This document shows positions 1 to 49,643 of a DNA stretch of 64,000 bases, one piece after another (the first letter of the stretch is position 1; every line of letters starts with the position of its first letter). The position numbers and the translations under genes were made by a program. Location of the stretch: positions 22,944,831 through 23,008,830 of the forward strand of contig OX243821.1 of assembly GCA_945859605.1 (NCBI GenBank), read 5' to 3'. The notes beneath the pieces are model-generated. The model was not told the DNA's origin. It was given only the letters and a program-made list of their open reading frames with translations, and did not search any database. Source of the stretch: Lumbricus rubellus (lineage: Eukaryota > Annelida > Clitellata > Crassiclitellata > Lumbricidae).

Positions 1-227
<227 letters not shown>

Positions 228-2816: not shown

Positions 2817-3164
2817 AACAACAACAACATCAACGACAAAACAGGTTCATTAATTTTTGGTTTACCATTGCCTATGTAACACACATCGTGGCTGCGTTAG
2901 CCTAAAACTAATCATAAATTGAATGGTTTTACTAAGACATAAAAAACACAGAAGGCGGAAGCACTAATACTTTGTCGAATGCTAAATGAATAAATACAGT
3001 CACAAGCCAACGTTTTAATGGTGTTTTAAATATAAACCAAAATATAAACCAAAACAGTAGACTCATTCTCAATGAGTCTATCAAATGTTGTCGTTAACCA
3101 GTTCTAACTGCATGATTGCCTGCTAAATTTAAATCTTATCTTAATAGTAAAATACATAAATGAA

Positions 3165-4861: not shown

Positions 4862-5054
4862 TCATGCTGTGTAATTTTGAAATCATACGCATATTTTTTA
4901 TGTGTTCTTGTTTCTTTTATTATATTACGATATTTATTTTTTCAACAAATATTCCCAAGTCCAATCACCCTCTTTTTGTTCTTTGTTTTTTTCATCAGCA
5001 TGCCATGATTAATACATGTACGTTTGTCAGTGACACTTCGGGCGCACTTCTAAT

Positions 5055-5088
5055 ACACCTTTAAAATATTTTTTTGTAAAGCTATATA
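5055..5088 (-). promoter_or_regulatory. Bipartite ACACCT-N22-TATATA motif
   Basis: ACACCT at 5055 and TATATA at 5083, 28 bp apart, inside the last intron of gene A. Related copies in gene B's last intron are at about 41341 and 41429. Confidence 0.5.
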
Positions 5089-5167
5089 AATTTACCACTG
5101 CATACGTAAATCTAATAATATAACAACTGGCCCATGATTTTGTCTGGACAATAATAATAGACAAATC

Positions 5168-6431: not shown

Positions 6432-6529
6432 TTGTCTACCAACAAAGTCGTCGTTTCCGTCATGTGCAACACACAGCTATATGATTTTTCTTGTGGAGGT
6501 TTAAATAGGAGATTGTTATATACTGTCAA

Positions 6530-6720
6530 AGGTGTTCAACTACCAAGCAAAGACCGCCCTTGGCATTTTAACACTAACTCATTCATACAGAACGTGTACG
6601 CCGTTGACATTATAGCCGAGTGTTTACATCCCGGTGGAGAACGGCTTGTATTGGAGTTGTACTTCGACCGTGAATCGTTTCAATCGACCGACGCGATATA
6701 GGATGAGTTAGTATTGCGTA
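6530..6720 (+). repeat. Dispersed repeat R (AGAACGTGTACGCCGT ... GATGAGTTAGTATTGCGTAA)
   Basis: Contains TATAGCCGAGTGTTTACATC, GGAGTTGTACTTC and TTCAATCGACCGACGCGA. Copies lie at 43398-43545 and 46100-46260, with 3' parts only near 46350-46440 and 46510-46570. The 3' edge is followed in three copies by CTCTCTTT then an ACACCT...TATATAA motif. The open frame at 6432-6701 runs across this repeat but has no recognisable domain, and the frame is not kept in other copies. I treat it as non-coding. Confidence 0.6.
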
Positions 6721-7942: not shown

Positions 7943-8185
7943 TTGATTTTATGCTGTCACCAAAAGATGGAACAATTCCATACCTGACTTTTCCTTCAGA
8001 CTAAAATTATTGACTGCTTGAATTTTAGCAGCGTTTTGGTTTGTGATAGGCACCTACCGACAATGACAAACGCACAATGAGTTTTTCCGCTTGTATTTAT
8101 ATGCTAACGGAAAATTTAAAAGAGGTGTCGTAGAGACTGCCCTCCGTATATACCAAAAACGGCTAACTTTCGTCATCTGTTACCT
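7413..8185. other. Spacer with (CA)n blocks
   Basis: CACACA-rich blocks at 7413-7480 and 7860-7938 flank about 370 bp of more GC-rich unique sequence (7490-7855) that has no convincing frame. Confidence 0.6.
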
Positions 8186-8329: not shown

Positions 8330-9420
8330 AGCAATTTCCACTCTTTTAGGTCAATAGTTATGGTCTATTTTGCACCATCCTACCCAATCTTTTCAATCTA
8401 TCCAATAATATCCTTTTTTTCTTTATGTACAATTCCACTCCATTCTATTTCATTCATCTATCGGAACAAATTTCGTCGAGGTCCCGAATCGCCTTCACAC
8501 CGACCGACGCATGACGATAACAGCAAGCAGACCTTGGTGACCAGGCAGCCGAGAGGAACGTTGGGCGGCGGACGGTGGGACAAGGGCTGCTTGCCTGTTT
8601 GGCTTGTCGGTTGGTGGGTCGGTGTGTTATTGCGAGTAACACGCTTAGACCATTAGTCTAATGTTGAAGACTCGTCTAAAACGGGGAACAGTTGTATTTA
8701 ATCGACCGTACAAGGGAATATTCTATCTGGTTGGCGCGCTCACTTGCTCCATTACCCTTCCAGCCTCTTTCTCTCTGACTGTCTGTTTGTTTGTCTATGT
8801 CTTTGTCTGTAAGTTCCTGTCTGTCTGACTCTGTCAGTTTCTACATTCATTGTCTATCTGTCACATGTACATGTATGTATATTTTTTGAGTCAGGAAGGA
8901 GCTGGAGACAGACAAACATACTCACAGACGCACAGAAAGAGGGCGTGGAAGTTTCAAAAGTGCATGATTCTATATTATGTGTTGTGCCTAGTCATCAGTA
9001 GACTGTGGAACAAATATGATGTTATCTTTACTAACTGATCGTTTTGAGCGTTTAGGCTACGACACATTGTCAAGTCAAGGAAGGAAAGACTGGCTTAAGT
9101 TAAACTTTGGTGCAGTGTCAGGTTTTTATATCAAACGTATTGAATCATTTTAAGGGTGTTTTAGTGTACTCCAAAATATCGCGTTTTGAAATAATTATAG
9201 TCAAAACTAAATAACGATCTTATCGTATCTGTGATCGTTTATCTGCTGATGACCAATTATTATCTAGCGCCTTTGAGATGCTGTGGGTAGACGAACGACA
9301 CGCTCCAGTGAACAACTGATGATGTGGATGACGAGGAGGAGGGAGTGTGGAAGATGAATAGGAAGATGAAGAGCAGGAGGAGAACTAGAAAGATCAGGAG
9401 TATTATATTATGAGTATGTC
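8330..9420. other. Unique spacer with short simple repeats
   Basis: CTGTCTGT-type pyrimidine stretch near 8770-8860 and an AGG-rich stretch near 9325-9400. No gene is seen; a TATATC/GGGTGT motif copy lies at 9127-9159. Confidence 0.5.
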
Positions 9421-9434
9421 CGCCCAACAATTCT

Positions 9435-9468
9435 TATATAGTACTGTATGTAAACGATTTAGAGGTGT
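9435..9468 (+). promoter_or_regulatory. Bipartite TATATA-N22-AGGTGT motif
   Basis: TATATA at 9435 and AGGTGT at 9463, exactly 28 bp apart, in unique sequence with no similarity to the flanks of other copies. Confidence 0.5.
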
Positions 9469-9534
9469 TCGCGTGAACATCTTAAATTACTTTTATAATT
9501 GTCATCATCCTTTTTTATTAGTGTTATTAATAAT

Positions 9535-9689: not shown

Positions 9690-10340
9690 TAAATTATAGT
9701 AAGCATTCGCCAATTTAATCTTATTTAGACGAATTATATCGCTTTAACAAGGTGTCTAAAAGACTACAGTTTATTTACGAAGCGACTCGACTGAAGATGT
9801 TTTAAAAGGTGTTTAAAAGGTGTTTTAAATCACTATTTTTATATGCAATGTTTAATGATTCAACCATAGGTACTTACAGTAATCATTTGCCATATTAATC
9901 TTATATTACTTTAGCAAGCAAAGGTAAATCTTTAGCAAGGTGTCTAAACGACTACAATTAATTCATCAAGATACTCGACGTTTGACATTTGAAAAAGGAG
10001 TTGAATAAATCACTTTCATCATTTGCAATATGTAAATTTTTTTTATCACACTGTAACACCTAAGACAGCTAAAATACGTGGCAACTGAAATATTGGAGCT
10101 GCAGTTAACGGCGTTTGTGAGGCTTAAATTTCATGGGGGAATGGTGGTTGTGTTTGACCTATGAGGTGGAACTGATAAAAGTAGGCGTGGTAATTTTAAT
10201 ATTAAATTAGATTAAACATTATTCTTGCTTTGAATGCTAATCTGCTTTATAGTTTGTCGACAATATGTATGTGTGAGCACTTGCTTCTGACTCTAAATCA
10301 GAATGATGCCTGTTCAAATCACGTCAGGGTCATAGTTGTT
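9690..10340. other. Spacer with clustered AGGTGT cores
   Basis: No gene. Four AAGGTGT cores lie within 190 bp (about 9749, 9810, 9821 and 9938), including a direct TTTAAAAGGTGT duplication. Confidence 0.5.
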
Positions 10341-10673: not shown

Positions 10674-10682
10674 TTAATGTAC

Positions 10683-10715
10683 ACACCTCTTCTAAAATTT
10701 TAACTGGGCTATATA
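10683..10715 (-). promoter_or_regulatory. Bipartite ACACCT-N21-TATATA motif
   Basis: ACACCT at 10683 and TATATA at 10710. The flank AACTGGGCTATATAA is shared with the copy at 14159, where GATGACT..GTGGACAAATAAA follows, so these two are duplicates of one segment. Confidence 0.45.
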
Positions 10716-10926
10716 AGGCACCTAGATGACTAGCGGACAAATAAAAGAGCAAATAGCAAATTGGTCAATAGTCAGCAGTCAGAGTTTCGTAGCGGAAAAC
10801 GATGACAAATATTTTAACAGTCTTCCATAAGATAAGCTACATGCAGCAATTTAGTCCGGTGTCTTTATTATAAGTTAAGCTCTTAACTTTATTCCAATGC
10901 CTCTCTTCTGAAGTGAATGTTGTTAA

Positions 10927-10960
10927 ACACCTTTCTAATGGAATTAAACATTGCTATATT
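10927..10960 (-). promoter_or_regulatory. Bipartite ACACCT-N22-TATATT motif
   Basis: ACACCT at 10927, TATATT at 10955; spacing 28. A second copy at 11187/11215 has the same spacing and an AATGTATGTTG(C)TAAACACC flank in common. Confidence 0.45.
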
Positions 10961-11247
10961 AAATGTCTACATCTTTGACTTTTAATGAACGATAGCGTTG
11001 ACAGTGTTGTCTAAAGTTAACTTAATAATATCAAAACATTATTATGCACAATTATTGTAAAGCAAACCTATTCATCAAATGTATGATCGTAATATTATAC
11101 TGGTCTGAAGTTTTGAATGAACAAAAGGTGAATCTCGAAATTGAATAAAAAATCTGATACTGCGCGTTTGGAATGTATGTTGCTAAACACCTTTATAACG
11201 GAGTTAGGCCATTTTATATTAATTATCCATCAGCCCATTAGTTACTT

Positions 11248-12669: not shown

Positions 12670-13283
12670 GACCATGAATTTATATAAAATTCGATAGCCC
12701 GCTTTCACCGCGTTCGTGTGTATTAAAATTTCCCGGGGCGAAGCACAACATATTATACTCATAAATATAATGGGACGAGATATCGCTTATTGAATCCCAC
12801 TCTGGACAGCGGACACGTCTGCTGGAACTTTTCACAGAACGTCGTCTGTAGGCATTGGGTGCGTTTTTGTCGGCAATGCTACATCAGAAGGGACTCTTTT
12901 TAATCTGGATGGATATTTTGGATCGATATTTCTGTTGAGTGATTATCTGCAGCTGTTTGGTTGGTGGGTGTTTAACAAGGATGCTATTTTGAGTCTTGAT
13001 AATTTCTTCAGGCTTATGACTGGCACTTTCAAAAGCATGAAGGGATATGACAAATGGAGGCGATTGTGGATTAATTAAGTAATTATTTGTATTATACTTT
13101 GAATGTCATCTTGACTTGAAAAATTGCGAATTGTGTGATTACTACTTTGATAACAGGCTAAATTTTATATGTTTTCGTAATCAATTACAGTACAACTGCG
13201 ACGTTTTGCACATATAAAATATATATTATTATTGTATAATTTAAAAAGGTGTCCAAGAGGAGTCGAAATTGTTACAGTTAACG
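12670..13283. other. Unique spacer
   Basis: No gene recognised; an AAAAAGGTGTCC core lies at about 13244 with TATATT-rich sequence about 28 bp upstream. Confidence 0.5.
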
Positions 13284-14100: not shown

Positions 14101-14158
14101 GCTTACACCTTTAAAAAGGTTATATTTCTGATCAATGATTGTCATAGGTGAATTTTAT

Positions 14159-14191
14159 ACACCTCTTCGAAATTTTTAACTGGGCTATATA
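14159..14191 (-). promoter_or_regulatory. Bipartite ACACCT-N21-TATATA motif
   Basis: ACACCT at 14159, TATATA at 14186; paralogous to the copy at 10683. Confidence 0.45.
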
Positions 14192-14469
14192 ACTCACCTG
14201 GATGACTTGTGGACAAATAAATTTAGTCCATAAATGGCTATTATATAGCAAATTGGTCAATAGCTATAGTCAGTGCCGTAGAAAGCGTAGAAGGCCATTT
14301 TATGTTATTGTAAGAAAGAAAAAGAAGAAGTTGAAGTCGCTCTTTCCTATTCTTTGCAAAAAATGCCACAAGATACCACAATAAAACCCATTCCACGAAA
14401 CTTATAAACTTTCAAATCAAATACAAATATTAAATGCGTCGTCCAAATTCCTACAGAAAAGCTACATGT

Positions 14470-16050
14470 ATGGCTTTTAGAATCCAACCAAAAAACGCAC
14501 CTTTTTCTAGCAACTCCTCCTCCACCGCCGTGCGCTTCTCCGTCCGTCTGTCTTATCTCATGACCCGAATATACGTCTCGTCCTGATTCCAAGCGACGGT
14601 CTGTTGTGGCCAATCTATCTATTCACACCGATTACGGCGACGCCGATCGGTCCCCGGGGTACGACCGGGTTTCCACCGACTACAACGTCCACCTTAATCG
14701 CAATCAATGTCGCCCGTCCGTTTGTCCTGCTCCGGGCATATTTGGACCGCTATACATCACGTCGCGAGCGTGTCATATTATGGGAATGCGTATAACACGC
14801 GGATGGTGGCGACGCGCAGCGGGAAGAATATACAAAGGGCGACGTTTTGATAAAATAAAACATGTGTATGATTCCTTTCAATGTTATTTGAAGTTGGTCC
14901 TACGTTAAATTTGAATTCATTACGAAATATTAATGCTATATAGGACCAATTTTATTTTAAATAGGTCCTTTAATTAATTAACATAATTATTAGACATCTT
15001 AAAAAATGTCAATTTTCCACATCATTTTGGGCAGTTTTTATCAACCTTTTTTAAACAATTAGAGCCACGTTATATACGTCTGTGCCTCATGAACTCTAAT
15101 ATAAGGGCGGTTTTAAATCACAAGTGTATTGTGTATAATCAATGAATGTGTACAAATGAAATACAAACATTGTGTCATAATACTTGCATAGATGATAATA
15201 TCAAATGAGCTATTGAAACATCGAAGTCACTGGTTAAGACCCTCTATTTGGTAAAATCACTTTGTCATCATTGATAAAAAACGTCATATTCACTGTTTCG
15301 TTGTTAAAATGTATCATTGTTTTGTTGTGCACTTTTGAATAAGCTCTCTTCATTGACACGTTCTGCCTTATTAACTTTTATCCGTATTACTTATAGATAT
15401 ATCATGAATGGTGGTTGCGTTGTTGTGCAATAGGTTGCTATAAGGTTGTCTCTCAGGCGCTCAACAATTGCGTTGGTTGTCTTCCTGACCTCAGAGAAGT
15501 TGACCAGGCTGTTATATGTACATCACTACGATCACATCCGCAAAAGTTTAGACACCCGTTTTTTATATTAACCATAACTATAAATAGTTATTGTTGGGTT
15601 CTTGTATTACATTTAAGCTCAGTGATGTGCACTGTGAGAGTCTCCTTATGGATTTATATGTAAAATGCGATAAATTATACTTTCAATATTGTGACGACAG
15701 CGTAGTGACGAGGAAAATCAATCCGACCGGACACTATTTTGCGACCGATGCTTATTTCATGTCACACCCACCATGTGCCTCCACCATGCACGGACATTAG
15801 CACAACTACTGCGACCTCTTTCGGAATATTTCCAACGTTACCGCATTTATCCTTTCTCCTTTCACTGGTGGGTCAAAGGTCAATGCATAGATACATATTT
15901 TGCCGACGAAGGAAGCCAATCGTATCTCCATATTGTGGCACTAAAGACGACATTTTATCTTCGAATGACGCATTATGTTTCCATTGCGACCCGTTATGCG
16001 TTGGACCAGCTTGCCGTGCGCATTAATTATGTGCGCCAGTTTAGATAAGC
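14470..16050. other. Uncharacterised stretch with two GC-richer islands
   Basis: Islands at about 14500-14870 and 15690-16030 are richer in CG than their surroundings and carry open frames (14606-14908; 15773-16048). Neither frame shows a family motif, low-complexity bias or a clear splice context. They are not seen elsewhere in the window. They could be exons of an unrecognised gene, regulatory DNA or old repeats. Confidence 0.3.
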
Positions 16051-16777
16051 GAAAAGATTTATTATAGCGCCGCGTTATATAAAATATCGGGTGTTTAATG
16101 CATTTCCCGCTTTGAAAAAATTACATTAATTAGTTGCCGCCACGAGTGAGTTTATTGACGATTCAGAATTTTGCCCAAGGGACGAGAGAACATGAATACA
16201 TTTCTTTCTCATGCAAGATGAGTTTCTAGTTACCGAAAATATGCTATGATCTGAGTTGGTTATACATTATTGTCATTAGTTTAAGTAGTCATTGGTAGAG
16301 ATATTCGAGTAAGGAGAGAAGTAATGATTACATAGTTCATGTTGAAAACCCTTATTAGATCGATATTAAACGCTATATAAGAGCGAACAAAGCTTGAAAC
16401 TTCGATCAATTCATTAACACACAGATAGTCTAATTGCTTTAAACTCCGCCCCGCTAGTTATTTGCCAATGGCATTGCGAACACTAATCATCCTAAATAAG
16501 GCACAGCGTTCCTATAGGACGGGCAAGAGCAGTAGGAGTGGACGTGAAGGGAGGTAGAAGAAGGGGAGAGGAAGAGGTGGAGAAGAGGAAGAGGAGTTGG
16601 GGTGGAAGAGCGGGAGAGTATTAGTTGACAGTTCTTTTTGCAGAAGAAGCTACCGTCAGTGACATGTGAGGTCACAGTGCATGACAGCATCTGTCATGGC
16701 GTCAGGTCCATATAAGCAAATAGAATTCACGAATATTTTTGAAATCATGAATTCGTGAGTAATATTATGAACTGAAG

Positions 16778-17158: not shown

Positions 17159-17338
17159 CACCTTGTCTTCACCATGCACCGACCGAGTAGTCCCGAAGTC
17201 GGCTCGGAGCGCGACCGGCGTCACCCCGTGGGTGCAGCAGCAGCGACGATGCGGCGGGCGCCTCAGAGGCGAGCGTCGCACGGGCGGAGTATGGAACGCC
17301 GTCGGTCGGATGATAATAATATTAATAGTTCACAATGG

Positions 17339-17370
17339 ACACCTTTATTAAAATGAAGCTCATCTATATA
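17339..17370 (-). promoter_or_regulatory. Bipartite ACACCT-N20-TATATA motif
   Basis: ACACCT at 17339 and TATATA at 17365, 26 bp apart, just left of the LINE insertion. Confidence 0.35.
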
Positions 17371-17389
17371 AATATAAGCAACAATCTTA

Positions 17390-21543: not shown

Positions 21544-23120
21544 AACGGGTATTGTGTCATAAGCCGAGAAGATAAATAATCACGTTAGCGTCGCATTACA
21601 GCCGTATTCGGTCGGACGAGGAATGATGGATGGAGCGACGGCTGGATGGGACGATCGGCCTAAATAATGAGCGTCAATGCAGGGAGGGTGGGGAAGTGGC
21701 TGGGGAGGGTGGAAGGGAGGTTGGAGAGGGTAAGGGAGGGTTGATGAAGTAGCTGGAAGGTTGCCCTTTTGGGCGGGGTGGGTTGAGTTGTGATGGGGTG
21801 GAATGACGGGGTCGTTGTTTAATGGGAGTTAGGTGGAGTTCTAGTGTTTAACGATGTCGCCCTCACTTTATTATCGTCTTGGGGCTGGCATTTTCATGGG
21901 CTATTTTAATGAAGTTAAAAGGTGGGTTTTTTTCGGGGGGGGGGGTAAAGTGTGTATAGGCGTGTGGTAGTATAGTTATAGAGTTTGGGAGGACATGGCT
22001 TAAAAAAGAGACTCATAATATTATATGGTTGGGTTCTATGGGTATGTGTGCGCCCTCCATTGTGCGACGTGTTCCAGTTATCTGTGCGGATGATTATCTG
22101 TTCTTGGCATTATCATTTATCATCTTTACGCCATTGATTACCATAAATTGCTATAAATTACCATAAATTGCCACATATTGGCTTTTACAATGTTAACGTC
22201 CACATGCTATAAACAAGACGTCCATGATCGGTTTCTTGATCGCCTCAGTGCAACGGACGATGAAAATATCAACTGACGCTACTTGTCTTCAATGTCTTCT
22301 TGCATAAACTTAGATGATAAATCGCAATGGATGTGATATATACCGTCGCTAAAAGACCTATATAATAAAGGTATCTTATGATGCAATGCATGTGGATTTT
22401 TTAAGATGGGGTATATATATTTATATATATATATATTGTATTGTATTGCATTTTATCGTCTACTAGCTGTACCCGACCACGCGTTGCTGTGGCTGAAAAG
22501 AGCGTCCAACCATCCCTCCCTACCTAAATTCCCGATCTTTTCGTAATCTCATTGATCGCGATCGTTAAACACCTTCCACAATGTGTAGGGGATCATTATT
22601 TAATTATCCTTTGGCGCAATTCCTTAGCTTCCTCCGGAGTATTGCAATTATTCGACTTAATTGGTGGACAAACGTTGTTGCAGCGTATATTATTAAATAA
22701 AAAATGTATAATTGAAGCTAACTCCGCCACTGTTTAAACTCTGTCAATGACACTCTCACACCTGCATAAAGGGAGATATTTGCCCTATAATAACCCCTTT
22801 TTCATCACACAATATCGTTCGACTGAAACTTGTGAGCGAGAGGCATTCTAAAGGTCGCTTCAGAGTGGCAACCCACAGAGCGCTTTATAAAATCCATGAC
22901 GAATGCACAGTAGCAGTGGAGGGGTCGAGCTCAAGATATATGTATTGCCCCTAAAAAGCAAAAACACATGTAGTTACTTTGACTCTTATAAATTAACAGT
23001 TGCTGTGTTTTGGCTTTTCATGGCAAAAATCTACATTGTTGCAGTTTAGCGTTATTGTGTGATAGCAATTATGATGTGCGGTCAAAGTCACTGTATTGCA
23101 CAAGATAGGAAATTTTTGCT
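21544..23120. other. Unique spacer
   Basis: G-rich stretch 21660-21780 (GGGAGGGTGG units) and a partial copy of the 100-bp repeat near 21855-21900. An (AT)n block lies near 22415-22445, and a decayed repeat edge TACTAGCTGTACCCG near 22460. No gene recognised. Confidence 0.5.
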
Positions 23121-23154
23121 TATATAGTTTCTTCTAGAAACGTTTAACAGGTGT
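23121..23154 (+). promoter_or_regulatory. Bipartite TATATA-N22-AGGTGT motif
   Basis: TATATA at 23121 and AGGTGT at 23149; spacing 28; flanks unlike any other copy. Confidence 0.5.
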
Positions 23155-24185
23155 TCAAAGCGATCGCTTTGACCATCTGGAAACCGTACTCCACAATAAA
23201 AAATTGACAGCTTGGCATGGTTTCTTACGTCAACTTACTACTTACCAACACACTCTAACAAGCTGTATTTACTCGATTGACTGATTGCCTTTCTAACTTA
23301 CTTATTTACTCAACGCAAATTTATGTCACCTTTAGTGACATCTAGCGTCGTAATATTGAGCGGATCAGAGTCGTGTAATAATAGTGAGAGAAATTTGTCA
23401 ATGCTTTCGATAATTGCCGGAGATTGTGAAATATGGTCGGATCTTGTAGATTGCGCAAATAATAAAAGAAACGCGCTTGGTTCACGAAACCGCGAAAGTG
23501 ACATGCAGAAATTAAGAAATTATATTGTACGCGGCTAATGATGGGAGTGGACGCTATCTTTATACACCATTAACACATTTAAAACATGCTTATAAAAACT
23601 TCTAGCGAGTAAACAAGTTAGCTTTGAAAAGCCCAAATCAGGAAAAATATACAGTAACATGCAATAATTACAGAATTGTCAGTAACTAATCACTAGAGAA
23701 AATGGAAATGAATTACAATTTCCAAATTATTTTGATGCAGAGCTGTAAAGTACAAAATGCGTTATTTTAAACGCATCAATAACATAATCATAACTTTCGG
23801 ACCTAAATCTCTGGAATTAAACAAAATCAGGGAGGAACCGTTTGCCTTTTCTGTTGTACGAGTATCGTTATTTATTCTGTCAGATAATGTGTATTATTTT
23901 AGTTTCTTCAAAAAGCAGCAGCTCTTCAAACTTGATAAAATTTCGCACAACACCGGCTGTTATACGATAAAATCATGCTTTAAAAATATGCAGAGCGTTA
24001 TTTTACGATGCCGACGAAAACAGCAAAAACTGTATAACTCCTTAATAATAGCCAGAAAGCATCATCTTCTATACAATTCTGCATGCGCATCATTGTCGTT
24101 GTGAGGTTCTGTATACGAGGATTTATAACAGAATTTGGCTAAAATAGTCAACCTCTTGGTTATAAATATAACGCATAATTATCAT
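23155..24185. other. Unique spacer before the upstream module of gene B
   Basis: No gene with a recognisable domain. The frame 23757-24104 is Lys/Phe/Leu-rich and has no family signature or paralogous support. Confidence 0.5.
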
Positions 24186-24686
24186 AAAAGAGGTGTTTTA
24201 AACGTAAAATTGGAAAAATATTTTACCCGTACAGCAGCGATATCTGACAACCATACTCGTTGATGTGGGTTATTCGCGGGTCCAAACTTCTTTTTTTGTG
24301 ACTGACAATACCTGAGAAATTTGGATTTTGGACTCAAAATTTTTTGATACTATTTTTGTCATTTTGACCAGTTCATTATCTATATTTGGAAATTCCCTCC
24401 ATTGGGTATTTCCAACGATTCATTCCTTTATGGCTACCGTATAAAAGCGATTGCTGAGAGTGCTGAGAATGCTGAGTGCCAGAAGGTGCGATCGCTTAAT
24501 CGCTTTGAAGTGGTTGCTTTCTGTTCTATAGACTCACTCGAATATCGCCATCTACCGTAATTTATCGTAACGTGACGATTATATAGCGCCTCTATTTGGA
24601 GAGGACGTTGAAAGCGATGTGCATACATAGAAAGCGATTGCTCAGTCATTGCTGCTTTAAGGACACCATGCATGAACGTATGAATT

Positions 24687-24727: not shown

Positions 24728-25403
24728 CTGTATGTGTATGTATGTATGCCTGCATGTATGTGCGTGAAGACATAATTATGTCTTGTGTAACCAAGTGAGT
24801 CTTTAAGCGTCTGCGGAAAATCCCATTCGACACAAAATGTCAAGAACAGTGGGCTATGGAGCATAGAGAAACAAGATGGCGGTTAAACCGGTAAATAAAA
24901 TCAACCTTGCTTTATAACCTATAACTTTTTTTATTTCAGCATGGTCAGAATAGTATTGAAATGCCAGTTTGCAAATTGTTACGCGAGATACTTCTACTCT
25001 GATTTTTTTACACCTAGTTTTGAGCATATTATAAAAACTGTAAAATTCTATGTATTTGATGAAGAATGTTTAGTAATTTTAAAGGTGTCCAAATTGGAAC
25101 CAATTTAATTTATTTTTTAAATTCCAAGCGATTTTTAGGAATGCGAATTTCTTTGTATCTGAAGAGTGAGTAGTTTCAATAATTATTCAACGTCACTTTG
25201 TGATAACAAAGATCGTTTGCGACGCCCTCCTCCTTTATCGAGGCTTGGGACTGGCACTGGAAGAGTGCAACCAGTGGCGGAATATAATTGGTATCAGAGA
25301 TACAAATAGAAAGACAGACAAAGAGAATTGTCTAAAGTACAAGAAAAACGATAAAGGCAGAACAAAAACAAATCGACTATTTATCTAGTTGTTCTTGCGT
25401 CAA

Positions 25404-25633: not shown

Positions 25634-25956
25634 TCATTACGAGCGATTTTCTGTGACGTGCGACGCCGTCTTCATCATTCGTTGGGTGTGGCTTGATATC
25701 GGAACCGTGGTGAAAAGAGTTCCGCCAGCGAATACTGTGCTGGGTTCACTTTATAATGTAAAATATGATGCCTTTCAGAAAGTAATTTTTGTTTAAATCG
25801 ATGACAAACAGAATTTAAAATTGCAGCTTGTGTTAATTATTTTAGTTTCCAACACTCTGCTTTCTCTTGTTATGCTCAGAAATTTTCTCTCTTTTCATCA
25901 AAACACAACTCATGATGTAGTAGATAGCGAAGTTAAATGGCGTAAAAATCATTTCT

Positions 25957-25990
25957 TATGTAGCATCGGTTGACTATATTTAAACGGTGT
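25957..25990 (+). promoter_or_regulatory. Bipartite TATGTA-N22-CGGTGT motif (variant)
   Basis: Spacing 28 with variant halves. The paralogue at 58861 reads TATGTA...AGGTGT at the same spacing. Confidence 0.4.
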
Positions 25991-26477
25991 TTAAGACGAA
26001 CTATGTAAGTCACCGGAAGCAGAGACCGTTCGCATTTGAACAATTATATCTATTCAATAAATTATAAACTCAATTACCAAAATAGAGCGCCATAGAATAT
26101 AATAACCAGTCGATTCGAATCATTATATAAAACCGGTTAGTTATTTCTAGAGGTGTCCAATAGTATCGACCATAATATTCTTGTTTGTAATAACCTGTTG
26201 TGCTCTCATGGCAAAGGCTTCATCTGAAGATAATTGATCGCCTATCGAGCCCCAACTTAATATAGAATATAGTAACACCATTTAAAAGGTGTGTAAAGGA
26301 GCGTAACTGTATTTTCCAGCAGAAGACAATTATAATTTCCTGATAAAAAATGGTCGGAACCGATTTCCTACGGAACCACTCTGATACAACACCTGCGAGC
26401 GGCCAACCCGAAGTTAATAATGTTCTCAAATAGATAAACAAGGCCAGACCTGTTGGGTGAATTAATGACGCCTACGA

Positions 26478-28300: not shown

Positions 28301-29140
28301 GAGTGGACATCGTCGACTCATACTCACATGATACACAGTCGCTGAACTCTATTACTCGCTCGAATACCGATCACCTTCTCTGTTCCGTGACTTAGCTTTT
28401 GTTTTTAGACTGTGGTTAACGTGCGGTTTTTAAAAGCTTATAATAGCTAATGCTTTGTCTCTGTTATAGAGTTCGATAGCAGCAACAGTAATAGTTAGAA
28501 ATTGATGTTATTGTTTAAAGCTGGATTTTTGTCTTTGCTAAAACGATTTCTGCGATTGTCGAAGTTTTGCAACTGGGTTAGTGTAGCCTATAATATTGAT
28601 TTCGAGAATTTCGAGAGGATTATTAAGGAGCTATTCTATTATATTGTGCCAACACTTACTGCAAATAATTGCTATTCGTACTGATACTTCTACGGCTATA
28701 TACTACAATTGCTACTACAGCTGCTGCTGCAGCTCTTTCTAGTACTGCCGCTGCAAGTAGGCTGCTATGTCTATGAGGAGGGAACACGAAGAGCTCACCG
28801 ATGTAAAACTTCTTCTATACGCATGTTACACGGTTGGCATGCTGCATAGGAAAATCGAAAAAGCCTGGCGTGGACTGTAAAAACAGAAATTCTGTGACTG
28901 AACTTTGTTGATGCAACTAAATGAAAAAAGAAATAATAATCAGAGATCAGATAGTTGAAAAATAAGACAATGACTGTTTTATTGCAAATATTTGAACACC
29001 TCTTTCAACTAACTACTTGCCATTATAAATAAAACTGCTCGACCTGGCATAATTGTCTAAATTCAGCAGGTACTTTTTCACATTGTTGGACACCTCTTTC
29101 AAGCGAGTATATGTTTTTATAAGATGGACTGTTAATCGAT
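28301..29140. other. Presumed 5' UTR / first intron of gene B
   Basis: Conserved with 60442-60800 at first, then diverges. Bipartite motif copies at 28996/29024 (ACACCT/TATAAA) and 29090/29118 (ACACCT/TATAAG), both spaced 28, occur only 94 bp apart in sequence absent from gene C. No coding exon seen. Confidence 0.5.
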
Positions 29141-29379: not shown

Positions 29380-30105
29380 ATATTTTCAACCGAATTTAGA
29401 ACTGAAGAACTGTATGGTATCTGCATCATGACGATGATGCAAATCGCCATTATTTCCTATCACAAGATGTCATTAAACTCATTTGCGTGTCATCTGCTTT
29501 TACATTTCCAGGTGAGACAGAATTGAGACGAATCATCAAACATTTCATTCGCCAACAACAACAAAGAAGTTTATTCTAAGGATTTGAAGAAGAAGAAATC
29601 TTTTCAATTCATTCGTTGTTTCAATTGAATTCAACGTCGACTGAATTATTTACAATTACTTCGACAGGTTGGTTCTTGTAATTACCTCGCTACATAAAAA
29701 CCACCGCAGACACATAATATAAGAAAATGAGTATAGATCAATACAAACACGATTAAGCTGGTGCTCTGCTTTCAAATGGCGCTTTAAAAATTTGAAGATT
29801 ACGATTACGATTCCATTGCAACCAATGACAAATGGAACTATAAAACGCAACGTTCGATGTTTTTATATAGCATTCAATATTGACAAAAAGGGGTATCTAA
29901 TGATTTAAGTTTTTTTAAACTCGTTGCCAGTGTTATACTATTTTATATTATTATATATTATATTATTATTAATATTAAATATATTATTAGTGTTTTAGAG
30001 TGTTCGAAACCGCTACAAGTCATTCACAGCTATGAGTAATTAAAAAGCTAAACGATCGCTATTATTTTTTGCTCTTTAAAAAAAGTATACTACATTACAC
30101 TACCA
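29380..30105. other. Intron sequence, gene B 5' region
   Basis: No gene. An AAGGGGTATCTAA variant of the motif lies near 29889 with TATATA at 29864; its gene C counterpart at 61077/61105 has the standard 28-bp spacing. Confidence 0.5.
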
Positions 30106-30585: not shown

Positions 30586-30703
30586 GTAACTGAATGATTC
30601 AGATGAAAGTTCCGTTAATTTGAGTCTTGGCAATGGCACACATTGCGTGATGGACTAGTTTAAAGATGCGACATTAAACCCTACGCATAATGAATAACGC
30701 TAG

Positions 30704-30738
30704 ACACCTTTCTTATAGGTACAATCTAATGCTATATA
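30704..30738 (-). promoter_or_regulatory. Bipartite ACACCT-N23-TATATA motif
   Basis: ACACCT at 30704 and TATATA at 30733 (spacing 29), in the intron right after exon 1; conserved after exon 1 of gene C near 63027-63060. Confidence 0.45.
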
Positions 30739-30891
30739 AACGAAAGTTTCTTTAAGTTGTGAGTTCCATGGTAAAGCTCTTGCAAGTCATGATATTACGC
30801 GTTCGTCAATGCAGAAAATATTATTTATTTATTTATTTATTCATTTATTTATTTATTTAATTGTTTATTATTTATTTATTTATTTATTTAG

Positions 30892-31757: not shown

Positions 31758-31973
31758 CCCACTTATGATAGAACTTCAGATAAAAGTTTCGTTATTACGA
31801 GTCTTGACGTTGGCACACAATAATTTATTTTCGTGGTGGATTATTTCAGAGATACGACGTCATTGTGGGGTGCGGTGCCATTGTGTCACTTGTGTGTATG
31901 TATAGAATTATTATAAGACGATTACAGTAACTGCATTGATAAGTGACTCATTGAACGGTTTTCGTTGGCAGTT

Positions 31974-32007
31974 TATATAGCCTTCAACTCTCCCATCTTA
32001 CAGGTGT
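31974..32007 (+). promoter_or_regulatory. Bipartite TATATA-N22-AGGTGT motif
   Basis: TATATA at 31974, AGGTGT at 32002, spacing 28; about 220 bp before the LIM1 exon. Kept before gene C's LIM1 exon at 63624/63651 (spacing 27) although the middle bases have changed. Confidence 0.5.
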
Positions 32008-32223
32008 CTAAACAGAATAATGTTAGCCTACAGATCGCCTCAACGTCAGCTTACGTACACTGCTTATAAGATATGAGTCACTTGAACCAGGATGAAAATG
32101 GGGTCAATGGGGTTCATCCCATAATTCGCATATGTGCCCTCAAACACCGAAGTCCATATAAGTCGTCGTCAAAATAGTTAATTCTGAGTGTTGACATCAT
32201 CACGTGACCGGATGTTGTTGTAG

Positions 32224-32399: not shown

Positions 32400-33180
32400 A
32401 CCAGCCTATATGCGCTATGTCTCGTATGTGGCCTATTAATTATACCGCATTGCAGTGTAAGACTACTTTATGCTTTACTGTATTGCTCTGAAGGATGAGG
32501 AAGAATAATCCATAGATTAACGACAGCAACAATTGGTTTGGCATATTAATTTTAAGCGATACTGTTTTATTGAAGGAGGTGCAACATGACGAAACAACAT
32601 TTTCATGCTGTTGCTGACTAGAATAGAGGAGCGGCGTTTGACAGCGCTACATATCACGAGACTAATACTGCCGTGAAAAGCCAAAACACAGAGTGGTCTA
32701 TTTATATCCAACGTTAATGTATAGTACAGTTGGACGCAATCGTTAAAATTCACAAATTCTTAGAAACCTTTTAAACAGGTTAACACATTTTATTTATACG
32801 TCACTAGTCCTTCCCTTTCACTACGATACAAATATGCATTTCTGAAATCCATAAACATAATCATGCTTCTGGCGTGTTTTCTTTTGTAATTACAACTCCA
32901 CCACTGTCCCAGTCCCAGACCAGAGAAAAAGGAGGGTGTCGCTGATGATCTTTTGCTATCATACAGTGGCGATAAACTACTACAGTAACTGTTGGAATTA
33001 CTTCTTGCACTGGCAATATTTAATGCTTATATCATTCTTATTTTATAATGATGACGACGACGATGATGATGATAATGATGACGACGACGATCAATTAAGT
33101 AAGCGTTAATGTCTATTTGCGCTGTTACCGTTTTGGCGGATGACGTTGTTGATCTAAAATAAAAGGCAGATCACAATGCT
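32400..33180. other. Gene B intron, 5' part
   Basis: Contains a 100-bp repeat copy (about 32890-32985) and GAT/GAC triplets near 33045-33095. No coding exon. Confidence 0.6.
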
Positions 33181-33214
33181 TATATAGTAATATTTAACCA
33201 TGTTTAAAAGGTGT
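33181..33214 (+). promoter_or_regulatory. Bipartite TATATA-N22-AGGTGT motif
   Basis: TATATA at 33181, AGGTGT at 33209; the best match to the extended form CTTATATAG ... TTTAAAAGGTGTCTAA. Confidence 0.55.
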
Positions 33215-33590
33215 CTAAGGTGTATTTTTTTTACGGTTACCGCTCTAACCGATTGGACTAAAAAGGTAGATATAGATACTGCTTAAATTTTCTATGTCAA
33301 AGTTCGAAATTAGGAAGATTAGCTGTGCCCACCTCCTTCACCTAATCTTGCACTGTTACCATCTCGCAGGAGGACAAGAATATGCGATATCAATGTTCTC
33401 GTCGTGTCCATGTATTGCCGCTACCCTAAACTCTGCTATTCTCCGACGGATCAAGTACGAGTGTAGCCGGGCGTAGGGTGGATATAGTGCTTAACGACAT
33501 CTTATTGCGATATTCTTACTTACTTACTTATAAACATCTTGACTTTGTCATAAATATAATTTGCACTTCCTGAGATGTACATGTACATGT

Positions 33591-33809: not shown

Positions 33810-34700
33810 AACTTGTACGTTATCAAAAAATGACCACGGGACTGTTACTACTAGTAGAGCAACAATCACTCTTAAAAGAGGTGTTTGCACTGGACACTTT
33901 TCGCATGTTTATCACCGTCTCGTAGGTGACTTCATACAAACAAGCACGCATGATAATTGAGCAATTGATACATTGCGCAAATTTTTATGTATCGTTAACA
34001 AGCTCTAAAGTATGTTTACTTTGATTAATTTTCTTAGCCATATATGCAATCTTGGGCTTGAAGGTCCGATTAGGCCAATGTGTATGTAAAATCGATTTCC
34101 TAGGCTTGGTGGTCATTACATTTAAATAGATTTAGTTAAAATTAGTTTAAAACGCTTTGCAGGTGTTTTAAGAGAGCCTTCTGAGTCCTTGTTGCGACTT
34201 TCCGCGTTTATATAGTAGTTGGTAAAAACGTTTATATGTACACACATATATTATGTATATATATATATATATAATACAGCGTCGTCTTTTTGAAACCGCA
34301 TTATTATCTTTCTGCGGTATTGACGATAATTTGATAATTTGATAAATACGTCGTTGATGGCATCGGATGAACTTATAATAAAAGCAGAAGATATCAACAA
34401 CGGTCGTATGATCCCGATTAAAGGATCACCGCTCATCGTCTTAGTCTTAGTCTCAGTCTATCTAATACACGCTGCCATTATTATATGGAAGAAGCAGCGC
34501 TACAGAAATAAATCCGAAACGGAAAAGATGAGGGGACCGAATCCGATATCACGACCACCGCTGACAGCAGTTCAACGATAATGTAATGATCGGCGAGGAG
34601 CGATAACTTTCAATACTAAGAAAGCCCTTAATCTTCCTTTATTTTTCACTGATATAATAATTTTCATATCTTGCTTGCGTCCAAAGGATTCCTCTCGGTC
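33810..34700. other. Gene B intron, middle, with one orphan open frame
   Basis: Mostly unique A/T-rich DNA with an (AT)n block near 34240-34275. The + strand frame 34339-34581 (80 residues) has acidic start, one hydrophobic segment (SPLIVLVLVSVYLIHAAIII) and a basic KKQRYRNKSE stretch after it, like a single-pass membrane anchor. No family is recognised and no paralogous copy is in view, so it may be chance. Confidence 0.3.
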
Positions 34701-36688: not shown

Positions 36689-38010
36689 GTATCGGAGCTA
36701 GATAATGTTGAAATCGATTATGTCGTAGCCCTAGACTACGCGTTGCCACTTTGTATGTGAAAAGCATGCAACAAAGCGTTACTCGTGTAGGCCTATTATA
36801 GATGACCGTAGACTCGATGATTGTGTTGATATTTTAACTTAGTTAGGCTTCATAGTTTGTCAATTTCATGCTGAACTTGAATTTAGGGCCGTTGTTGATC
36901 AAACATGATCTAATTTTATATCATAGGCCTCAAATGATGTGGGGTGAAAAATATACACCAGGTTATCCAATATGTGATTTTTTATAGGTTAGCCTCCGAT
37001 GGTTAAGTTAATTATATTCTGAAACATGAATATCGAGTTAGAGTCTATTGGAAACTTTACCCAGATATAAATTGAAAAGTATGGTTTTCAATGTGTCTTA
37101 TATTATCTAATTATCAAGTCATCTGCATAAAGAGATCTAGATTGAATGTAATACGTTTTAAAGGTATCTTATATTATATAAATATCAAATAATCCTTATC
37201 ATCTACAAACTACATAGCTTCTTAAAATACGTCGTTACAAAGTCAACATTACAGTTCTTATTTTTTTGCGCAAATGATACGATGAGTGGGAGACATATAA
37301 TTATGACAATGAACCGATTAATATTTTGTTGCTACACCAATAATGTTGTCAGCGATCCGCGTGTGAGAGATGTCTCCGTATTATCTGTGCGGCGACCATG
37401 CTAAAGCACCGACGTTTCGTGACAAGTCATAAAACTTTGAGAAAGACGATGAAGAAGGCGATTGAATTTCTAGTATATAAGATGGTGACAGAGAAGTTGT
37501 GGAGAGAGAGAGAGAGAGACAAGCGATCATTCAATGAATTACGTCTTACTTGCTTAAACTGATAAGATTTATGATGGCTGAGTGAATCTGTTGGCAATGT
37601 TGGATGACTATCTGAACTTCTGAAGCGCGCTTTTTGGACACCTTTTAAACAAGTATTAAAATGAATATATAATTATAGAAAGTGCTATTTGCTTGAATCG
37701 TCAGTGAGTCTCGTTAAATCAGACAAACGCAGAGTCAAGATGGTAAAATATTCGAACGGAGAGTTAATAATAATAACAGAGTTTTAATTAATTCGGCTAC
37801 TGCTCGCTCTCTAACAGTGCCGATACCAAGCTTTGCCAAAGGAGAAGGGCGACGTCAATGATCTTTGTTTACACAGTGTTGCTAAACTAAAACAAGCAAA
37901 CAAACGTTGACTTCTTTTTCTCTCTTCTTTCTATTGAAACACTATTTGCTCTCTAACAGTGCCAGACTACAGAGGAGGAGGGCGACATTAATCATCTTTG
38001 TGACGACACA
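36689..38010 (+). other. Gene B intron, paralogous to about 840-2290
   Basis: No exon. It includes a motif copy at 37638/37666 and two 100-bp repeat copies (about 37790-37890 and 37940-38010). Confidence 0.7.
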
Positions 38011-38150: not shown

Positions 38151-38399
38151 TTTTTATGAACATAGTGACGAGCTTCTCTGCGAGTCTGAAATATTATTGG
38201 AAGAGTGTGGAAATTGATGCATAAATTAAGTATGAAATCTACGTTTTAAAGGTGTTTAATTTTAGGCTAGACAAATGGAAATTGATGAAGAATCATCACG
38301 TGTAGACTGGTGCGCCTCTGAGTAGAAATGTTGAATGGACGTTATGGAAAATGCGTGCAATAAATAATAATAAAAAAAGTGAATGGTGATGTATAAAAA

Positions 38400-38600: not shown

Positions 38601-39280
38601 AAAATTGTTGTATTAACAGTTTGCAGCTATAGTTAGAGTATTAGTTATAGCTATGGTTATAAATATGGTGATAGTTATAGTAGTGATTGTAATGGTGATA
38701 GAAACAATTAATACCGAATAAGCAGTAATATCAGCAACAACATCAAGGACGATATGGGTTCATAAAATATTTGGTTGATCATTGCCTATGTAACACACAT
38801 CGTGTCTGCGTTAGTCTAAAACTAATCATAAATCTTCCGTGATGGTTTTACTAAGACATTAAAAAACATAAAAGGCGGCGGAAGCACTCCAACTTAGTCG
38901 AATGCTATTTAAATAACCTCTCAAGCCAACGTTTTAATGGTGTCTAAATATAAACCATTATAATAGGCTCGTTCCTAACGAGTTCATAAAATAATATTGT
39001 CGTTAACCAGTTCCAACTGATTGCCTGTTATATTTAAAATTTAAGTTGTATCTTAATCTCTAAATGAATAAATGAACGAATTTTTGATTGCGATCGGACG
39101 ATGCAAAAGCAGACCGAGAAACCTACGCCACCCGGTGTCACTTACCCTTCCCACTTTCGGTCGTGGCTGAACGCATGGGGTCCTGTGATTTACTGTTGTG
39201 TTTTTCATTATCGTCGACCGTTAAGCCTAATCAGGTGTCGCCACGTTAACGTCACCCCAGACTACGCAGGAAGGCAGCGA
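38601..39280 (+). other. Gene B intron, paralogous to 2395-3160 but lacking the SINE
   Basis: Shares TATGGTTATAAATATGGTGA and ATTGCCTATGTAACACACAT with gene A. It serves as the empty site for the SINE at 2535-2816. Confidence 0.75.
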
Positions 39281-41017: not shown

Positions 41018-41762
41018 GTAAACATGGTCAGCGCTCGTCAATAAGCTGGTGCTCCGCGCTTAGCTTGAGAGAGACGTTTGAGAAAATAAATTGCGATTAT
41101 GATAAAATTTTATGCGTATTTAAATGGAATATCCATCTATATATGTATTATTCACTCGTTCACTCGTTCACTCATTCGCCCATTCATTCATTCATTCATT
41201 CATTCATTCATTCATTCATTCACTCATTCGTTCAGTTATTCAGTCACTCAAACTAAACCAGTCATTCTTTTAGCGCTTATTGTTTTTTTTATGAGCATGG
41301 GTTGCATCAATGTTAGCGACACTTCGGGCGCTATCCTAAGACACCTTAAAAATTATAAAATAGATTTGTATAAATATTGTACTTTTCACATTTTACGTTG
41401 TTATTGACATGTCGTTTTCTCTTCTAAGACACCTTTAGAACATTATAACATAGTACTATATAAGATTGTCACTGCAAGCGTAAACATAATAATACGAAGT
41501 TCAATGTATAGCCTACATGTACTTCACAGATTCGGGAACCATGGGTATATCGTTAACTCAAAACAAAATGGTCAGCACCACTGTTATTATGGTGGTATGT
41601 GCATTGTGCACTTCAGAACTTAATTTCAATTGCATTCATTCTGGAGTGTGTCAGTTTGATGGAAAGTAAGGGTTAGTATATAAGCTGCTATTACTGTGCC
41701 ATATAAATCCGATTTATAGTTCGAAATTAATGGTTATGGTTACGTTTTTTTGTTCTGTGTAG
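41018..41762 (+). other. Last intron of gene B
   Basis: 745 bp against 1984 bp in gene A. The difference is the MITE, triplets and LINE scrap in gene A. (TTCA)n lies at 41150-41235, with ACACCT motif copies at about 41341 and at 41429/41457 (spacing 28). Confidence 0.8.
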
Positions 41763-41964: not shown

Positions 41965-43380
41965 AAAAAAACCCAGGGTCATACTGATAGTTTCATTTGC
42001 AAAGCGATCTGCTTAAATAAGAGTTAAATTTCAGTCCTTTCACTATTAAATTTTCTGGATATTTCAGCAGTTAATCATAAACCTGTTTATTTTCTTCTGG
42101 ATCTTATGTGGCCAATATCAATCTTGAAAGAGGTGTTTAATTATTTTGAACTTTGTGTGAGAAGTGTTGAGCGTAACGATACACGCCTGGGACCTGCACT
42201 GCCTGGCATTATATCACGTACGGAAAGTGAAGAAGGATGACATTACTCGATGGTCGGTTTAACGACAGTTTAATACTTCAATAGAACAAAAGCTGTTGAT
42301 GTTGACACAAACTATTGCATTGTATATTATATTAAATATTGTACTGTATTTTTTATTGCATTGCATTGCTTTTGCATTGCATTGCATTGTATATGACCAT
42401 TTATAAAGCGCATCGTATATATACGGTCCTGACGCGGGGAACAAAGAATCTGATGTGGGTCAGAGGGCCTAACAGGACAAATGTTATTGCATTGGTCTGA
42501 TTCTTCTTTCGTTCTCAGTGATAGGATGTACAAGACATGTTCGTATGTCCAATTACGTCACGCATCTCTCTTCAGTCCTGAAATGAATGAGCGGGCACCA
42601 CATTCCCATTAAAAGCTAATGTCAAACGACATTCCTTTGTAAAGAATAAGGTCTCATCCCTGAAGAGCTGTAATAAACGTATATCATACAGTAATTTGTT
42701 TGCGTCTCTGTTGTCATAAGCTGTCGTTTAACCATCCACCCGTTAAAACCAAACTTGGTAAATTTTTCAATGAATTCGTTAACGTTCTTCTTAGACACCT
42801 CTGTAAAAATTCCACACAATGCTATAATAAAGTATTCATTAAAACTATTATCTCAATGTATTGACTCCACCACAACATAGCATAATATGCGGCCTCTGTT
42901 GTCAAAGACAGTCCTTAAAGTTTAAACAATTCATCCATGAAACGTGTTCAGTTTTTTACAATAAATTCATGGGCGTTCTACTTAGACACCTCTATTACAA
43001 TGAAAACCAATGCTATAATTTCGCATAATATTATAACATGATCATTGCAACCGAACGCGAGTTTCAATGTTATTGACGTCACTACAATTAACGTCTGACC
43101 AGTTAATTATCAACAACTCTCATATATATATACACCTACTGAGCATTTTCTGCTGCGCATGTCATCGGCCATGCCGCCGGGTGACTGCATGTTCGACCAC
43201 TGCTTCAATTAACGGACATTTTCATTTAAAAGCGGATTTTCTCAGTTAATTCAAAGGTGGGTTTGCTATATGTTTGCGTTCTGGAATTTATCGTCGGTTT
43301 TCCCAAATATTTAATGCGGCGTTTGAAGGAATTTGATCTCAAGGGGAAGGTGACAGCATCAAGCCCATCCTTCTGAAGCA
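41965..43380. other. 3' UTR and spacer downstream of gene B
   Basis: Shares the (TATTG/CATTG)n plus GACCATTTATAAAGCGC block (42309-42420) with gene A. Two motif copies, 42795/42823 and 42986/43014 (ACACCT...TATAAT, both 28), sit 191 bp apart in related TTCTTAGACACCTC contexts. No gene is seen. Confidence 0.55.
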
Positions 43381-44393: not shown

Positions 44394-44427
44394 TATATAA
44401 AATAATTTTAAATTGTTTTAAAGGTGT
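44394..44427 (+). promoter_or_regulatory. Bipartite TATATA-N22-AGGTGT motif
   Basis: TATATA at 44394, AGGTGT at 44422, spacing 28, in unique sequence. Confidence 0.5.
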
Positions 44428-44699
44428 CCAATGTTTTTCACGCTTCAATTACTGGTAGGTCACTTGACGTAGAACATATAACTAACCTAATAGGAAGAAG
44501 ACGAAGAAGCGGTTAACAATCTAGTCAACACTATATACAATGGTTCACCTACAAATGTAGCCACGTGATTATTGTCAGCACGCGTAGGATACACGACCTA
44601 CAATGTACTATTAAAGATATTCAACGATCGATGAATAAATTCGCGTATAAAATGTTTGACCATTTAAGATAGTCACTGTGTAATGAACCATTGCGCTAG

Positions 44700-49609: not shown

Positions 49610-49643
49610 AACATTGCCACCAAATTCTTGCGTCGATAGATGA

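Follow-up and report, generated by a model that had tools for sequence, protein, structure and literature searches.

A probable array of snRNA-type promoters with TATA boxes in the earthworm Lumbricus rubellus and its candidate piRNA-like products

Promoters and other features of the window

The window, by which the whole 64-kb stretch of DNA analysed is meant (C14:22,944,831-23,008,830 in a 787-Mb, 368-contig assembly), holds 71 sites (gap 26–29, score of at least 18) at which an AGGTGT box, ACACCT on the other strand, is paired with a TATA box at a nearly constant distance (Table 1). Their promoter sense lies on the minus strand in 42 cases and on the plus strand in 29, and the density amounts to about 11 promoters per 10 kb. 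Exact TATATA/AGGTGT pairs occur 11 times at a start-to-start distance of 28, six times at 27, twice at 29 and once at 26, the background at the other distances from -100 to +199 (22–33 left out) being 0.12 exact pairs per distance on average, with a maximum of 2. A two-block matrix with a free gap of 20–37, refined in six rounds on the window, recovered 76 sites against an average of 1.9 over 20 order-3 Markov simulations at the same threshold; the gap was 28 in 48 of these sites, 27 in 18, 26 in three, 29 in two and outside 26–29 in five. The fixed-spacing motif, for which the original prediction had counted at least 35 copies, is real and more abundant than claimed, all 35 listed positions being found among the 71 sites.

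Table 1. Promoters, one predicted transcript start segment and twister-P1-like matches in the window, with matrix scores or remarks
Feature	Position	Strand	Score or remark
PSE-TATA promoter	257..296	-	34.6
PSE-TATA promoter, weak	928..966	-	20.6
PSE-TATA promoter	1053..1092	-	35.0
PSE-TATA promoter	1528..1567	+	33.5
PSE-TATA promoter	2011..2050	+	26.6
PSE-TATA promoter	2989..3028	-	27.3
PSE-TATA promoter	5051..5090	+	37.3
PSE-TATA promoter	6500..6539	-	24.5
PSE-TATA promoter	8094..8132	-	22.7
PSE-TATA promoter	9125..9163	-	29.2
PSE-TATA promoter	9433..9472	-	29.1
PSE-TATA promoter	9720..9759	-	33.7
PSE-TATA promoter	10679..10717	+	26.0
PSE-TATA promoter	10923..10962	+	34.7
PSE-TATA promoter, predicted +1 = 11245, 8 bp before tRNA-like gene	11183..11222	+	32.7
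PSE-TATA promoter	13218..13256	-	28.2
PSE-TATA promoter	14155..14193	+	24.8
PSE-TATA promoter, weak	15548..15586	+	21.3
PSE-TATA promoter	16342..16381	+	24.1
PSE-TATA promoter	17335..17372	+	27.3
PSE-TATA promoter, weak	22565..22604	+	21.8
PSE-TATA promoter, weak	22754..22793	+	19.2
Predicted first 30 nt of transcript of promoter 23119..23158, +1 = 23096	23067..23096	-	predicted from PSE A + 58
PSE-TATA promoter singled out in the original prediction, PSE TTGAACACCTGTTAAACG, TATA CTATATAAG	23119..23158	-	37.8
PSE-TATA promoter	23560..23598	+	26.9
PSE-TATA promoter	24161..24200	-	28.1
PSE promoter, TATA degenerate	25053..25092	-	26.6
PSE-TATA promoter	25955..25994	-	32.9
PSE-TATA promoter	26122..26160	-	28.1
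PSE-TATA promoter	26257..26296	-	38.6
PSE-TATA promoter	28992..29031	+	23.6
PSE-TATA promoter	29086..29123	+	25.5
PSE-TATA promoter	29862..29900	-	23.6
PSE-TATA promoter	30700..30740	+	29.4
PSE-TATA promoter	31972..32011	-	36.2
PSE-TATA promoter	32760..32798	+	30.7
PSE-TATA promoter, near consensus	33179..33218	-	41.1
PSE-TATA promoter, weak	34131..34170	-	20.6
PSE-TATA promoter, weak	37062..37100	-	19.3
PSE-TATA promoter, weak	37132..37171	-	21.3
PSE-TATA promoter	37634..37673	+	33.8
PSE-TATA promoter	38220..38259	-	32.4
PSE-TATA promoter	38908..38947	-	34.1
PSE-TATA promoter	41337..41376	+	26.5
PSE-TATA promoter	41425..41464	+	35.7
PSE-TATA promoter	42103..42140	-	24.9
PSE-TATA promoter	42791..42830	+	33.1
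PSE-TATA promoter	42982..43021	+	30.0
PSE-TATA promoter	43557..43595	+	36.4
PSE-TATA promoter	44392..44431	-	33.7
PSE-TATA promoter	46272..46310	+	25.0
PSE-TATA promoter	46440..46478	+	32.1
PSE-TATA promoter	48532..48571	+	22.7
PSE-TATA promoter	49573..49611	+	26.2
PSE-TATA promoter	51114..51153	-	24.5
PSE promoter, TATA degenerate	52061..52100	-	30.8
PSE-TATA promoter	52857..52896	-	23.9
PSE-TATA promoter	52999..53037	-	26.2
PSE-TATA promoter, near consensus	53279..53318	-	41.6
PSE-TATA promoter, best score	53413..53452	-	42.5
PSE-TATA promoter	54265..54304	-	36.9
PSE-TATA promoter	54535..54574	-	26.6
PSE-TATA promoter, near consensus	54689..54728	-	40.2
PSE-TATA promoter	55626..55665	+	31.7
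PSE-TATA promoter	56208..56247	-	26.4
PSE-TATA promoter	57202..57241	-	26.8
PSE promoter, TATA degenerate	57824..57863	-	24.2
PSE-TATA promoter	58859..58898	-	26.5
PSE-TATA promoter	59194..59233	-	24.8
PSE-TATA promoter	61075..61114	-	26.9
PSE-TATA promoter	63023..63063	+	27.0
PSE-TATA promoter	63622..63660	-	33.3
Twister-P1-like match	2171-2236	+	RF03160
Twister-P1-like match	43726-43794	+	RF03160
Twister-P1-like match	46959-47025	+	RF03160
Twister-P1-like match	25225-25283	-	RF03160
Twister-P1-like match	49312-49380	-	RF03160
Twister-P1-like match	50547-50602	-	RF03160
Twister-P1-like match	52232-52290	-	RF03160
Twister-P1-like match	57999-58066	-	RF03160

Several other features lie between the promoters. 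Non-LTR retrotransposon frames with endonuclease, reverse transcriptase and RNase H domains extend over 17378-20743 of the plus strand, where a stop at 17713 splits the frames. A tRNA-like gene at 11253-11325(+), called by ARAGORN as tRNA-Gly (GCC), is G+C-rich with imperfect stems and may be due to chance or be a tRNA-like product of the promoter just before it. Eight matches, none of which reaches the gathering score, resemble the twister-P1 ribozyme (E 1.6e-6 to 4.6), and three of those on the minus strand are placed about 165 bp upstream of the members of one local promoter family (TATA at 25060, 52068 and 57831). Short inverted repeats formed by a G-run, a TGGTATCCACC-like centre and a C-run are dispersed over the window (3887-3915, 4068-4094, 4792-4816, 27488-27511, 61280-61304 and 61457-61482).

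The genome scan for TATATA-N20..23-AGGTGT that had been suggested returned 2,885 exact matches to TATATAGN{20,23}AGGTGT, against 162 for the reversed-pattern control. This exact pattern is matched by 13 of the 71 window sites, a ratio which, if assumed to hold elsewhere and with dispersed repeats ignored, suggests about 15,000 units genome-wide (2,723 x 71/13). A stricter pattern occurs in 790 places, and among the first 100 listed 86 are on contigs C1-C10 and 14 on C14; if the list is in contig order, some 700 of the 790 appear to lie on C14 or later contigs. Some dispersed near-identical repeats on several contigs also carry ACACCT-N22-TATATAA, perhaps as another ncRNA family or as a transposon with a captured snRNA-type promoter.

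The distribution along C14 (36.9 Mb) was sampled in twenty 10-kb pieces, placed by hand and more densely near the window. Seven of them contain no site, one a single weak site and 12 between 2 and 14. The pieces at 14-21.5 Mb are empty except for that weak site, those at 22.0-23.4, 24.5, 28 and 30 Mb contain 5-14 sites per 10 kb, those at 10, 5 and 26 Mb contain nine, three and two, respectively, and those at 1 and 23.8 Mb none. In the eight pieces assigned to DNA outside the clusters after the counts had been seen, the matrix scan gave one match with a score of at least 18 in 80 kb, so the false-positive rate is low. On C1, 19 sites in all were found in eight stretches of 3 kb that surround matches at 0.9-1.7 Mb, and a scan of viral contigs for the composite motif gave nine stretches with single matches, which is uninformative. 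The 71 window sites and 100 sites from 28 other genome loci make up a set of 171 (gap 26–29, score of at least 19), of which 137 are left once every site whose flank is >50% identical, without gaps, to that of a better one is removed. The flanks share no single consensus and are, as had been noted, unlike those of transposon copies, some small duplication families apart.

Identity of the two boxes

Read on the strand opposite to that of the original prediction, the composite consists of TTRRACACCTYTWWAAYG, followed by 12–13 bp and then by CTATATAAR. The polarity of the second box was determined in 68 window sites (gap 26–29, score >20), allowing at most one mismatch to STATAWAWR, the consensus of the TATA box. 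In the direction away from the ACACCT box 40 of the 68 fit this consensus, in the direction towards it three; therefore the TATA box points away from the PSE, the proximal sequence element of snRNA genes with which the ACACCT box is identified below. Transcription is predicted to run in that direction, opposite to that of the first of the interpretations offered before.

The snRNA genes of the same genome were located with Rfam models, and all 13 U1 and all 10 U5 matches, 10 of 46 U2 matches and the five full-length U6 genes among six matches (the sixth, below the cut-off, was dropped) were used. A 20-column PSE matrix trained on window sites only was slid over the 120 bp upstream of each gene. 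The best match places the A of ACACC 57–58 bp before +1 in 12 of 13 U1 and 10 of 10 U2 genes examined, 56–58 bp before it in 8 of 10 U5 genes and 63 bp before it in 5 of 5 U6 genes. It is misplaced in one U1 and two U5 genes, one of these U5 with a deviant RNA start. Best-match scores exceed the 95% null obtained from base-shuffled upstream DNA in nine U1, nine U2, nine U5 (one of them misplaced) and two U6 genes. Since a matrix trained on the window finds a match at a fixed distance before most of the snRNA genes examined, the AGGTGT box is, to judge from sequence, the snRNA PSE of this genome, and the array sites share with nematode-type piRNA genes an upstream motif derived from snRNA promoters. 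The earlier suggestion of a PSE-like ACACCTTT followed by a TATA box finds support here, in the TATA polarity and in the comparison of copies described below.

The spacing of the boxes bears on the polymerase. A TATA block scoring >5 is present in 4 of 13 U1 (at 25–28), 1 of 10 U2 and 1 of 10 U5 genes; because few polymerase II snRNA genes have a good one, the arrays combine polymerase II snRNA geometry with a TATA box. They share the PSE and, as predicted, the 56–58 bp from PSE to +1 with U1, U2 and U5, whose products, unlike those predicted for the arrays, are conserved and structured. If transcription begins 30 bp beyond a TATA box at 28, the array start would fall at PSE+58, which matches the U1/U2 distance. 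The window is thus very probably an array of snRNA-type promoters with the spacing of polymerase II snRNA genes plus a TATA box.

In vertebrates, a PSE plus a TATA box specifies polymerase III, while the sea urchin U2 promoters, which belong to polymerase II, reportedly require a TATA sequence and would be a precedent for the combination seen here. We regard it as unlikely that the units are U6-type polymerase III genes producing diverse short non-coding RNAs with no Piwi link. The U6 genes of this genome do have both a PSE and a TATA box, and one unit lies directly before the tRNA-like gene. In all five U6 genes, however, the best offset of the TATA box from the PSE A is 33 bp and +1 lies 63 bp from that A, against mostly 27–28 and a predicted 58 in the arrays, where none of the 76 matrix sites has the boxes at 33 and two have them at 34, a spacing unlike that of polymerase III type 3 genes. 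Oligo-T terminators are not enriched downstream of the array sites (first T4 within 150 of the TATA box in 0.58 of sites and in 0.55 of controls; T5 in 0.22 and 0.22), and copies diverge more quickly over the first ~30 bases of the predicted transcript than in the flanks, which would not be expected of a folded functional RNA. Polymerase II is more likely for the arrays, polymerase III being its main rival.

Downstream of 156 sites, a search for a signal resembling the 3' box yielded marginal words only; CAAAAC is present in 25 versus 4 sequences, with p 5e-5 before correction for ~4,096 words. No Rfam family scored above its cut-off in the window, and at E up to 5 no snRNA-like RNA was seen at the array sites.

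Predicted start and comparison of promoter copies

The start was predicted as PSE A + 58, calibrated on the U1/U2 genes. Of the 171 sites, 86 have a T at PSE+60 and 77 have one at PSE+61 (expected 51.8); for the 100 sites outside the window the counts are 47 and 47 (expected 30.3). Counted from the TATA box, T is present in 83 sites at +32 and in 83 at +33; after removal of related flanks the values are 64 at TATA+32 and 67 at TATA+33 of 137 (expected 41.5). With +1 at PSE+58 the enriched T falls at +3/+4, T at any one offset being present in only about half of the 171 sites. A YRNT that places its T at PSE+59..61 is present in 75 of the 171 sites (other offsets: mean 41.7, sd 6.8, maximum 58), and a pyrimidine-purine start by itself is not sharply enriched. 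In the window alone, 15 of 68 sites have YRNT on the wrong side, at +28 beyond AGGTGT (p 1.6e-4), a stronger excess than the 13 of 68 on the side where the start is predicted (p 1.8e-3). Equally enriched as the T, and unexplained, is an A at TATA+21 (83 of 171 against 51.8 expected), which lies some 9 bp upstream of the predicted start. PMC6436959 describes, for C. elegans loci with the SNPC-4 motif, short capped RNAs that map 2 nt upstream of the 21U sequences, with YRNT motifs present.

Some of the sites are members of small duplication families, which allowed copies to be compared. The stretch from PSE-6 to TATA+90 was masked and BLAST anchors were required on both sides; low-complexity flanks and pairs of >97% identity were dropped, which left 52 copy pairs in 17 families, reciprocal pairs being counted twice within families. 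Mean identity is 0.84 in the PSE, 0.76 in the TATA box, 0.71 in the spacer, 0.69 from TATA to start, 0.62 in the first 30 predicted transcribed bases, 0.71 in the next 30 and 0.73–0.77 in the flanks. Taken by family, the difference in identity between the PSE and the spacer plus TATA-start stretch is +0.126 (95% CI 0.072 to 0.184; 14 of 17 positive), and that between the +1..+30 segment and its two neighbours is -0.093 (CI -0.151 to -0.026; 14 of 17 negative). The same quantities around random centres (1,778 pairs, 52 families), in a control whose pairs are more similar overall (~0.83) than the promoter copies, are +0.020 (CI -0.008 to 0.052) and -0.001 (CI -0.027 to 0.024). When binned by 5 bp (62 pairs, looser thresholds), identity reaches 0.93 in the PSE core and is 0.82 in the TATA box, 0.51–0.65 from +5 to +30 and ~0.7 beyond.

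The TATA box is not clearly better conserved than the spacer in the comparison with filtered flanks (79 pairs, p 0.11). A poorly controlled one of 268 alignments, many of them spurious, gave p 0.02 for the same contrast and no significant difference between the PSE and the adjacent 60 bp. The earliest comparison (218 alignments, many spurious) was badly controlled.

A kept PSE beside a fast-changing ~30-nt product would fit guide RNAs in an arms race, and would not be expected of a structured RNA or of dead promoters; the dip at +1..+30 may alternatively be due to mutation linked to transcription. That the sites are real snRNA-type promoters, locally duplicated and mostly dead or making non-functional short transcripts, is still less probable than the polymerase III reading. 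Membership of some sites in duplication families agrees with decay, as do the 12 of 71 window sites scoring <24 and the few that lack a good TATA box. Against it, copies retain the PSE better than any other part and the product segment worst, and 137 of 171 sites outlast the removal of related flanks.

Candidate products and known small-RNA systems

The window is probably best explained as a domain of single-promoter, piRNA-like small-RNA genes of nematode style with an added TATA box. From the DNA we infer the following for each unit: SNAPc would bind the 18-bp PSE (TTRRACACCTYTWWAAYG), which is followed by 12–13 bp, CTATATAAR, ~24 bp and a start 57–58 bp from the A of ACACCT; RNA polymerase II would be recruited by SNAPc and TBP; and a short transcript would be made, in which the T at +3/+4 may become the 5'-U of a guide of ~30 nt, probably bound by Piwi and with a presumed silencing role. 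That the product is a piRNA-like guide made by polymerase II is fairly probable. The proposal of a start signal for short non-coding RNAs is supported as to the promoter class, by the snRNA PSE, the TATA polarity and the copies, and stays a prediction for the RNA.

A dispersed transposon or SINE with an internal snRNA-like promoter is very improbable; some listed genomic matches are near-identical copies of a few dispersed repeats, but the window sites have no single consensus and share the boxes and their spacing alone. Least credible of all is a reading as conventional TATA promoters of focused mRNA or enhancer RNA starts in which AGGTGT covers the start or serves as a T-box half site: TATATA does stand ~30 bp from AGGTGT in the orientation first proposed, but the TATA polarity is the wrong one for it and the box is the snRNA PSE. 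On these two grounds a T-box or mRNA start in that orientation is rejected, and a T-box is unneeded, since most of the U1, U2, U5 and U6 genes examined have the same box upstream at a set distance.

For the preferred reading, piRNA-like genes with one promoter each, the closest parallel is provided by the nematodes, above all by Plectus and by the type I piRNA genes of C. elegans. According to PMC6436959, their motif-driven piRNA genes have an upstream motif derived from the SNAPc motif of snRNA promoters, and the polymerase II piRNA and snRNA loci of Plectus are reported there without a TATA box; in C. elegans, PMC6317315 places USTC at type I piRNA promoters and describes TBP-1 as needed for TOFU-5 piRNA foci. 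The likeness lies in one small promoter per RNA with a motif related to the snRNA PSE, and in thousands of loci with unrelated products concentrated in parts of the genome, the array sites likewise being many and lying in domains with unrelated predicted products. As to YRNT, with T at +3 in the nematodes, both T and YRNT are enriched here in the set of 171 and outside the window, but T is present at only about half of the sites, and in the window alone YRNT is more strongly in excess on the other side of the motif. The arrays differ in their annelid host, in a full PSE instead of a GTTTC half, in an RNA that is predicted, and in a TATA box that belongs to the consensus (40 of 68 sites fit STATAWAWR). 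They would work like nematode piRNA genes, and are not classed among them since the host and the TATA box differ and the RNA is a prediction.

Literature searches, which did not cover annelids by name, found no annelid or other non-nematode array of this kind. piRNA clusters of the Drosophila or mouse type are large domains giving long precursors from few promoters; the arrays resemble them as large domains that may feed Piwi and differ by their many promoters. For earthworms, PMC6085071, in which Amynthas and Lumbricus were pooled and libraries were left untreated, oxidised or treated with polyphosphatase, reports transposon-derived, 5'-U-biased small RNAs with a peak at 29-30 nt, a length that agrees with the ~30-bp fast-diverging segment of the arrays.

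Chances are about even that an annelid uses the snRNA machinery, as nematodes do, to drive piRNA genes with one promoter each, in numbers of the order of ten thousand, with guide segments under diversifying selection, and with SNAPc either co-opted independently or part of a far older bilaterian system. If so, the snRNA apparatus would have been turned to guide-RNA production twice, or the nematode system would be much older. Guides with one promoter apiece would then be known from a second system, in which start sites, polymerase choice (28 versus 33 bp from PSE to TATA) and guide evolution could be read from DNA.

The host was checked on the mitochondrial contig (C368, 15,811 b), which holds COX1; an echinoderm origin, suggested at first by repeats and genome size, is rejected on its code (AAA as Lys and ATA as Met) and its annelid gene order. 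ARAGORN in its bacterial setting found no tRNA in the 4.1 kb inspected; these read trnK-nad3-trnS1-nad2-cox1-trnN-cox2-trnD-atp8-trnY-trnG-cox3, the tRNAs and the genes besides COX1 having been read by eye, an order which we take to be the conserved annelid one. Reading AAA as Lys, ATA as Met and AGR as Ser restores conserved residues of COX1, so that gene order and code fit an annelid and not a nematode host.
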